64,000 nt of DNA, from contig SVFJ01000002.1 in assembly GCA_015056925.1 (NCBI GenBank), positions 43,484 through 107,483 of the forward strand, read 5' to 3'. Under the pieces are notes generated by a model, which saw only the letters and a program-made list of their open reading frames with translations, was not told the DNA's origin and did no database searches. Within the stretch, counting starts at the first letter, position 1; each line of letters starts with the position of its first letter. Source of the DNA: Lachnospiraceae bacterium. Lineage in GTDB: Bacteria > Bacillota > Clostridia > Lachnospirales > Lachnospiraceae. Position numbers and translations under genes: made by a program. Shown one piece after another: positions 42,433 through 58,456 of this stretch.

Positions 42433-42598
42433 GATTAAATCCTCCATTTTATTTTTTATAATACACGCATATTAAAGTGAATTTCACTTAATAAAATTTC
42501 ACTTGTGAAATTTATCGCACCGAGCGCAGTTGCTTTAGCAACTTATTCCACATGCGCGAGTGTGCATCCTCTTGACCCTGTTTGTTTTAAAACAAACA

Positions 42599-42625
42599 GG
42601 GTCCGGTCCATAAGACCGGACCCTT
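42599..42625 (-). terminator. GC-rich hairpin in the gap-pgk intergenic region
   Basis: gggtccggtc-cataa-gaccggaccc; on the minus strand followed by TGTTTGTTTT. Confidence 0.7.
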
Positions 42626-42745
42626 TATAGGTCAAATAAACCAAGCTCGAAAAACCGCAACTTCGTTGCTACCTTTTTTCTCGCTGTCATTCCGGATGAA
42701 AACAAATGTCTGCTTCGCAGTCGCTTGTTTTCCTTCCTCATTCCA

Positions 42746-57350: not shown

Positions 57351-58121
57351 TTAGCAAAGAACCGAATTCTTTCTCTTAAAATCCCTATACTCTTCCACAG
57401 TAATATTCTGAACCTTACAGGCTTCCTCTTCTGTAAAGTTATAGTTTTCTATCAAATTATCTGCTGCATCTACTAATTTCTTTAATGCATAATTTTCAAT
57501 AGCTTCACACATAATTTTTACACCTTCCTTATTCTCTTTCAAATAGTTTACTCGTTTCTGAAATCTGCTAAACCTTGTAGAATCTATCTTCGTCTGCAAA
57601 AAACATTTCATCAATTCAGCAATCTCCGTTTTATCATCAACTGCTGTATTCACATATATCTCATGCAAACCATTATCTATCTTTACCCCTGTTTCCTGAA
57701 TCACAGGTTCCACATGATAAATAGTTCTTCCAGCTTGAAATAAGTCAAACTTAGATATATAAATCACATATATATCTGGTACATCCTCAAAGTGTGCACC
57801 TGTACTCGTAATGTTTGCCGTTATACACGATGCATTATACCTAACACGTTTTACATGATTATCATTATCAGCAATCTGTATTTCTACATTGTAATATTTG
57901 TTTTCATTATTTTTGCACAGAACATCCAGTCTTACTGATCTTCCTTGCAAATTTTTAATATCCTTCTGAGGAATAGTCTCTACTATTTTAAGTGTATCAT
58001 CCTCCATAATAGTCTGTATGATTTCCTCCATAGCCTCTATGTCTTCTGCTATCTTTTCAAAGAAACTATCATCTAAAGGAACTAAATCATCTAATATTTC
58101 TTTTGCTTCTCTATAATTCAT
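57351..58121 (-). CDS. Rpn/PD-(D/E)XK nuclease family putative transposase
   Basis: RSVRLDVLCKNNENKYYNVEIQIADNDNHVKRVRYNASCI; C-terminal YNFTEEEACKVQNITVEEYRDFK. Confidence 0.85.
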   Translation of the reverse strand: MNYREAKEILDDLVPLDDSFFEKIAEDIEAMEEIIQTIMEDDTLKIVETIPQKDIKNLQGRSVRLDVLCKNNENKYYNVEIQIADNDNHVKRVRYNASCITANITSTGAHFEDVPDIYVIYISKFDLFQAGRTIYHVEPVIQETGVKIDNGLHEIYVNTAVDDKTEIAELMKCFLQTKIDSTRFSRFQKRVNYLKENKEGVKIMCEAIENYALKKLVDAADNLIENYNFTEEEACKVQNITVEEYRDFKRKNSVLC

Positions 58122-58406
58122 TTTGTCCTCTTATTATACTATATTTTCTGTTTCTATGCTACTTTCATTTCATAGCAAACACTCATAGGCATCCCTCCTC
58201 TCTCTATGATGCACATACGAATTCCGTACTCAAAATACGTTAAGTTTCTGTACTCAAAAAATACTCAAAATCGGGATTAAGTTACGTGGAAATACGTTAA
58301 AATATGTAAGATTTGATTTTAGAAGTTATTTATTGATGTAGGATTAACCCTACATCAATGTGCCAAGCGCAAGTAGCGAAGCTACAATTACCATATGCGC
58401 TTGTGT

Positions 58407-58456
58407 ACATAAAAAAAACCGCTAAAAACCAGTATTTTCTTGATTTTTAGCGGTCT
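58407..58456 (-). terminator. rny terminator
   Basis: Minus strand: accgctaaaaa...tttttagcggttttttttatg. Confidence 0.9.

Follow-up and report, generated by a model that had tools for sequence, protein, structure and literature searches.

Small structured repeats located behind intrinsic terminators in the Lachnospiraceae

Two look-alike hairpins in a 64,000-nucleotide stretch of the genome of a Lachnospiraceae bacterium (the whole stretch is called the window here) belong to a large repeat family that is spread across the Lachnospiraceae and is apparently undescribed. The initial annotation had read them as a conserved structured element; beyond that, the element behaves as a mobile-type repeat located 3' of intrinsic terminators. 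The two hairpins, copies A and B, are probably old copies of a nonautonomous element that is mobilized in trans and inserts behind terminator hairpins. The constant part is a core of ∼53 nucleotides (nt) that, as a single strand (the + strand, as RNA or single-stranded DNA [ssDNA]), folds into a bulged asymmetric hairpin. Next to it there is usually another hairpin, H2, and some subfamilies add a further one, H1, and a mini-hairpin. An enzyme acting in trans may recognize the folded core, with insertion taking place right after the hairpin and T-tract of an intrinsic terminator, on their 3' side, in an orientation fixed relative to the terminator. Insertion at such a position would be nearly harmless, and the 3' hairpin of the element could itself serve as a target for additional copies, which would produce tandem arrays.

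Both hairpins are present on the + strand (Table 1), and they have the layout first described for them. What they share is an outer stem with a bulged U, a 2-nt step, a GCGCA/TGCGC stem, an inner hairpin, and an asymmetric strand of ∼10 nt. The compensatory change reported for the inner stem was likewise found, with GTTGC/GCAAC in copy A and GTAGC/GCTAC in copy B. The step is a tandem GA/GA in copy A, where the asymmetric strand is TTATTCCACA, and AA/UU in copy B. The H2 palindrome of copy A matches the H2 hairpins of other copies in position. Comparison with empty sites in relatives identified one arm of the copy A H1 as the tail of the gap terminator, which all of the relatives compared retain, in most cases with no element. 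The gapped pattern AGCGCA-N15-24-NCCANATGCGC matches exactly twice in the window, and shuffled sequences give an expectation of 0; the exact layout pattern has two matches in the whole 3.5-Mb genome, copies A and B. Folding of the + strand compared with shuffles gave a z score of -4.6 for copy B and a weaker one, -2.7, for copy A.

Table 1. Positions of copies A and B, their flanking palindromes, and the adjoining terminators in the window
Feature	Position	Strand	Remarks
Copy A core	42515..42567	+	Folded strand is +
Copy A flanking palindrome H2, AAATTTCACTTGTGAAATTT	42494..42513	+	Adjoins core directly
Copy A palindrome H1	42574..42603	-	GACCCTGTTTGTTTT and its exact reverse complement
gap intrinsic terminator, GGGTCCGGTC..GACCGGACCC	42599..42623	-	Presumed insertion target of copy A
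Copy B core	58358..58410	+	AAGCGCA/TGCGCTT, GTAGC-GCTAC hairpin, asymmetric strand AATTACCATA
Copy B flanking palindrome H2, GATGTAGGATTAACCCTACATC	58335..58356	+	Counterpart of subfamily S2 hairpin
rny intrinsic terminator	58411..58454	-	T8 tract abuts copy B; presumed insertion target of copy B

A covariance model built from copies A and B (R1) identified nine confident copies in the window genome. In a 60-genome sample, R1 was positive for 26 of 36 congeneric genomes, the window genome included, and for 0 of the 24 from the order's other families. With a refined model (R2), scored for no more than 14 to 19 candidates per genome so that copy numbers are lower bounds, there were at least 14 copies in the window genome. 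A sample of 299 Lachnospiraceae genomes, nearly all of different genera, contained 98 with R2 matches, and maximum counts were at least 19 per genome. When R2 was run on a 399-genome sample of the phylum, the matches were the window genome and one other member of the Lachnospiraceae, and none came from the approximately 394 genomes of other families. The many further copies, which show covariation, bear out the proposal of a conserved structured element. That element is indeed dispersed, as claimed, but describing it as a pair understates it, since A and B are two of ∼14 copies in the genome, and each of the two stands right behind the terminator of a gene. A pattern scan gave named hosts that include Eubacterium plexicaudatum ASF492 and Lachnospiraceae strains A4, COE1, and C-53. 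No known family had been recognized initially, and Rfam 15 agreed: at gathering thresholds, the window and 20 loci gave no match to the element, only to neighboring T-box, FMN, THF, and tRNA features. Relaxed thresholds at the two spots produced weak, chance-level matches only. A literature search yielded no description of the element in the Lachnospiraceae, which is weak evidence given that most subscription papers lay outside its reach. The plasmid records searched did not contain the element. A relative of the S3 type (see below) was seen in 29 contigs deposited as human fecal phages (MT837746.1, MT836815.1, MT835487.1, and 26 others); these are phage by deposit label alone and could be phage or host DNA.

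Conservation of the fold was evident from the pairing. Among 72 distinct copies from the genus, both sides change in 13 of the 15 core pairs and 97.6% of cells pair, exceeding all 500 shuffles and all slid controls. Across the family, 92 distinct copies showed compensatory changes in 13 of 15 core pairs, with 98.2% of cells pairing. Because both alignments were fitted to the model, the shuffles and slides outweigh the raw covariation counts. The bulged U is kept in 89 of 92 copies, and a UUCC motif is a conserved feature of the asymmetric strand. At the conserved 2-nt step that joins the outer stem to the middle one, pairing is Watson-Crick in 44 of 83 copies and tandem GA/GA in 33; the observed 77 of 83 with either form compares with a maximum of 47 when partners were shuffled. 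A UC/UC step on the + strand, equivalent to GA/GA on the other strand, occurred in 0 of 83 copies. With a step that is Watson-Crick or GA/GA and never UC/UC, structural constraint therefore acts on the + strand. A bias of G-U over A-C (50:10 and 43:11) agrees with the + strand; it comes mostly from one pair, and for this reason the G-A step is the main strand evidence. A pseudoknot between a UCC loop and a GGA strand in subfamily S3 was considered and dropped, as some copies do not have the GGA.

Along the terminator-sense strand, the complement of the folded strand, the modules are commonly arranged as host terminator with T-tract, an optional H1 and mini-hairpin, core, and H2. The whole element is 85 to 130 nt long and contains no open reading frame (ORF). 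In subfamily S2, the copy B type, the T-tract abuts ATGYRCAC directly and H2 is CGAGTAGG..CCTACTCG. Subfamily S3, found in many genera, has an H1 with ATAGGAAA..TCCTAT, a 3-bp mini-hairpin, the core, and an H2 that in several species has T-rich sequence of its own after it. TA-ended types of 127 bp have a nearly constant length and the ends TATACT..AGTATA. In copy A and three other copies in its own genome, H1 is made up of the terminator tail and, after it, the reverse complement of that tail. As a rule, an H1 arm matches its own partner when compared within a genome, but the effect is statistically small.

The association with terminators was quantified for 262 nonredundant copies, using a simple script as the detector. 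A terminator-like hairpin was found upstream of 99 of 166 non-TA-ended copies, versus 8 of 159 and 16 of 160 in distant control stretches and 23 of 165 on the H2 side. Approximately 40% of the non-TA-ended copies were negative with this script, and the TA-ended copies were at background (12 of 96). The distances are bimodal, either 3 to 14 nt or about 45 to 75 nt. Where the neighboring genes are codirectional, copies whose terminator-sense strand runs in the direction of the genes outnumber those in the opposite orientation by 69:13 (P = 2e-10). The same sites are filled in some genomes and empty in others. Between gap and pgk, the window genome carries copy A, another subfamily occupies this place in genome G010, and two close relatives (G023 and G020) have nothing between the gap terminator and the pgk leader. 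Directly behind the rny terminator, different variants occur in G032 (two in tandem), G012, G007, G021, and G005, and a decayed one in G034. That terminator is bare in G020, G023, G014, G017, and others, with the same form present without the element in these four and in G030. Near-identical cores with unrelated flanks were observed in five genomes (G282, G297, G233, G307, and G010). Taken together, the near-identical cores in unrelated flanks, the filled and empty orthologous sites, the tandem insertion behind H2, and the strand-specific fold argue for a nonautonomous element mobilized in trans, and from them we infer an enzyme that would recognize a single strand. The genes next to the copies are unrelated to one another. 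An all-against-all comparison of 215 flanking proteins, in which a recurrent partner gene was sought, gave small clusters only, none recognized as a transposase.

An unlikely alternative, although the least unlikely of the rivals, is that the element is a cis-acting leader RNA, located between a terminator or attenuator and a start codon, which controls the downstream gene by folding, RNase processing, or a strand-exchange switch. In most cases the downstream gene has the same orientation and is nearby (median of about 80 to 120 nt), and some copies lie between a T-box terminator and a gene. At one such place (L006/L008; G000:C164:7047-7178), a tandem of two copies, each from another subfamily, stands between a T-box-like terminator and thrS, and another copy (L314) is likewise behind an Rfam-confirmed T-box. 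In four loci from rumen genomes (L182, L195, L206, and L218), the core on the sense strand directly follows a TATAAT box. In L182 and L218, moreover, a second, truncated core comes after H2 and ends in the gene's Shine-Dalgarno sequence, AAGGAGG, just before the start codon, possibly as a strand-exchange switch or a truncated tandem unit. However, the downstream genes are functionally unrelated (pgk, thrS, fur, rimP, dnaX, glgC, and others), the element is missing at orthologous sites, the structurally constrained strand is antisense to the downstream gene, and the position of the terminator accounts for the orientation. The element may influence regulation of the downstream gene, above all in the copies at T-box terminators or with a truncated core at the Shine-Dalgarno sequence; such effects do not explain its distribution.

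We regard as quite unlikely a bacterial analogue of a SINE, in which a + strand RNA with the core near its 3' end would be reverse transcribed in trans from the 3'-OH of the terminator-hairpin T-tract. The first cDNA strand would then be the terminator-sense strand. This reading would account for the fixed orientation, the junction at the T-tract, the strand-specific fold, and the occasional inverted copies of terminator tails. Slightly more doubtful again is a miniature inverted-repeat element (MITE) of a conventional DNA transposon with IS630/Tc1-like insertion at TA, with the terminator-associated forms as derivatives. The ends and nearly constant length of the 127-bp subfamily speak for it. 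However, the 49 full-length TA-ended copies showed no target site duplication beyond a possible terminal TA, MITE-type terminal inverted repeats are confined to the TA-ended subfamilies, and the terminator-associated ones share the core only; a strand-specific conservation of the fold would also be unexpected for recognition of double-stranded DNA.

It is very improbable that the copies are REP/BIME-like palindromes mobilized by a RAYT (Y1) transposase on ssDNA. REPs have a GTAG/CGTC tag beside a palindrome of 20 to 40 bp (PMC3733652), and the resemblance lies in dispersed, intergenic, strand-specific bulged palindromes, tandem arrays, and probable recognition as ssDNA or RNA (PMC3733652). Against this, the conserved core of ∼53 nt is much larger than a REP palindrome, and a search for Y1_Tnp gave no match in any of five copy-carrying genomes, namely, the window genome (G000), G012, G035, G006, and G020; membership in the RAYT family was rejected on this feature. 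Just as improbable is quasipalindrome correction by template switching, which would keep palindromes perfect and produce "compensatory" changes without selection for a fold; H1 palindromes are indeed perfect despite differing sequences, with one arm copying the host terminator tail, but such correction would erase the bulged U, the UUCC asymmetric strand, and the G-A steps of the core.

The preferred reading, a nonautonomous element inserting behind terminators, makes this a kind of small interspersed structured repeat, like BOX, RUP, bcr1, and REP, that is distinct in its terminator targeting and conserved asymmetric core. As in such repeats, the copies are multiple and intergenic, with a conserved fold, no ORF, and variable occupancy between relatives. 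BOX, RUP, and SPRITE of Streptococcus pneumoniae are likewise small, dispersed, modular intergenic repeats with stable conserved folds that are thought to be parasitic and mobilized in trans, SPRITE being terminator-like (PMC3049150). In contrast, the Lachnospiraceae element has a different host family and a conserved bulged asymmetric core, and it is not itself a terminator but follows host terminators in a single orientation. Sequence likeness to BOX was checked via Rfam only. The bcr1 repeat, compared by description only, is also a short repeat (∼150 bp) with a conserved structure and mobile-element behavior, and it is described as specific to the Bacillus cereus group (cited in PMC2267715 and PMC3733652). 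According to PMC3898094 (and Robart 2007 and Toor 2006 therein), group IIC introns insert directly 3' of intrinsic-terminator hairpins, the terminator DNA hairpin being a key target determinant. The insertion site is similar; however, those introns are ribozymes with an ORF, whereas the element of 85 to 130 nt has no intron RNA domains, reverse transcriptase (RT), or Rfam group II match. Membership in the group II introns was rejected on the features tested (no ribozyme domains, no RT). Group II intron RT (GIIM) was absent from the window genome and other copy-carrying genomes and did not track with the copies.

The host family ranks among the most abundant groups of gut bacteria, and both the fold and the landing site of the element are sharply defined. 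With terminators as putative recurrent safe harbors, and with different subfamilies found at one and the same terminator (gap or rny), the mechanism of targeting can be put to a direct test. Leaders of core genes are made longer by the repeats, which could also mislead the annotation of small RNAs, terminators, and riboswitches in the Lachnospiraceae. Several other features were observed. A PD-(D/E)XK (PDDEXK_2, Rpn-type) transposase-family gene at 57351 to 58121 adjoins copy B, with no evidence for a relation to the element. A nested hairpin, AACAAGCGACTGCGAAGCAGACATTTGTT, lies on the - strand at 42701 to 42729, between the gap stop codon and the gap terminator; it is a single copy in the genome and is also present in the relative G023. 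In several relatives (loci L127, L126, L129, and L123, at the 3' end of gap), the last codons and the stop codon of gap are tandemly duplicated downstream of the gene.
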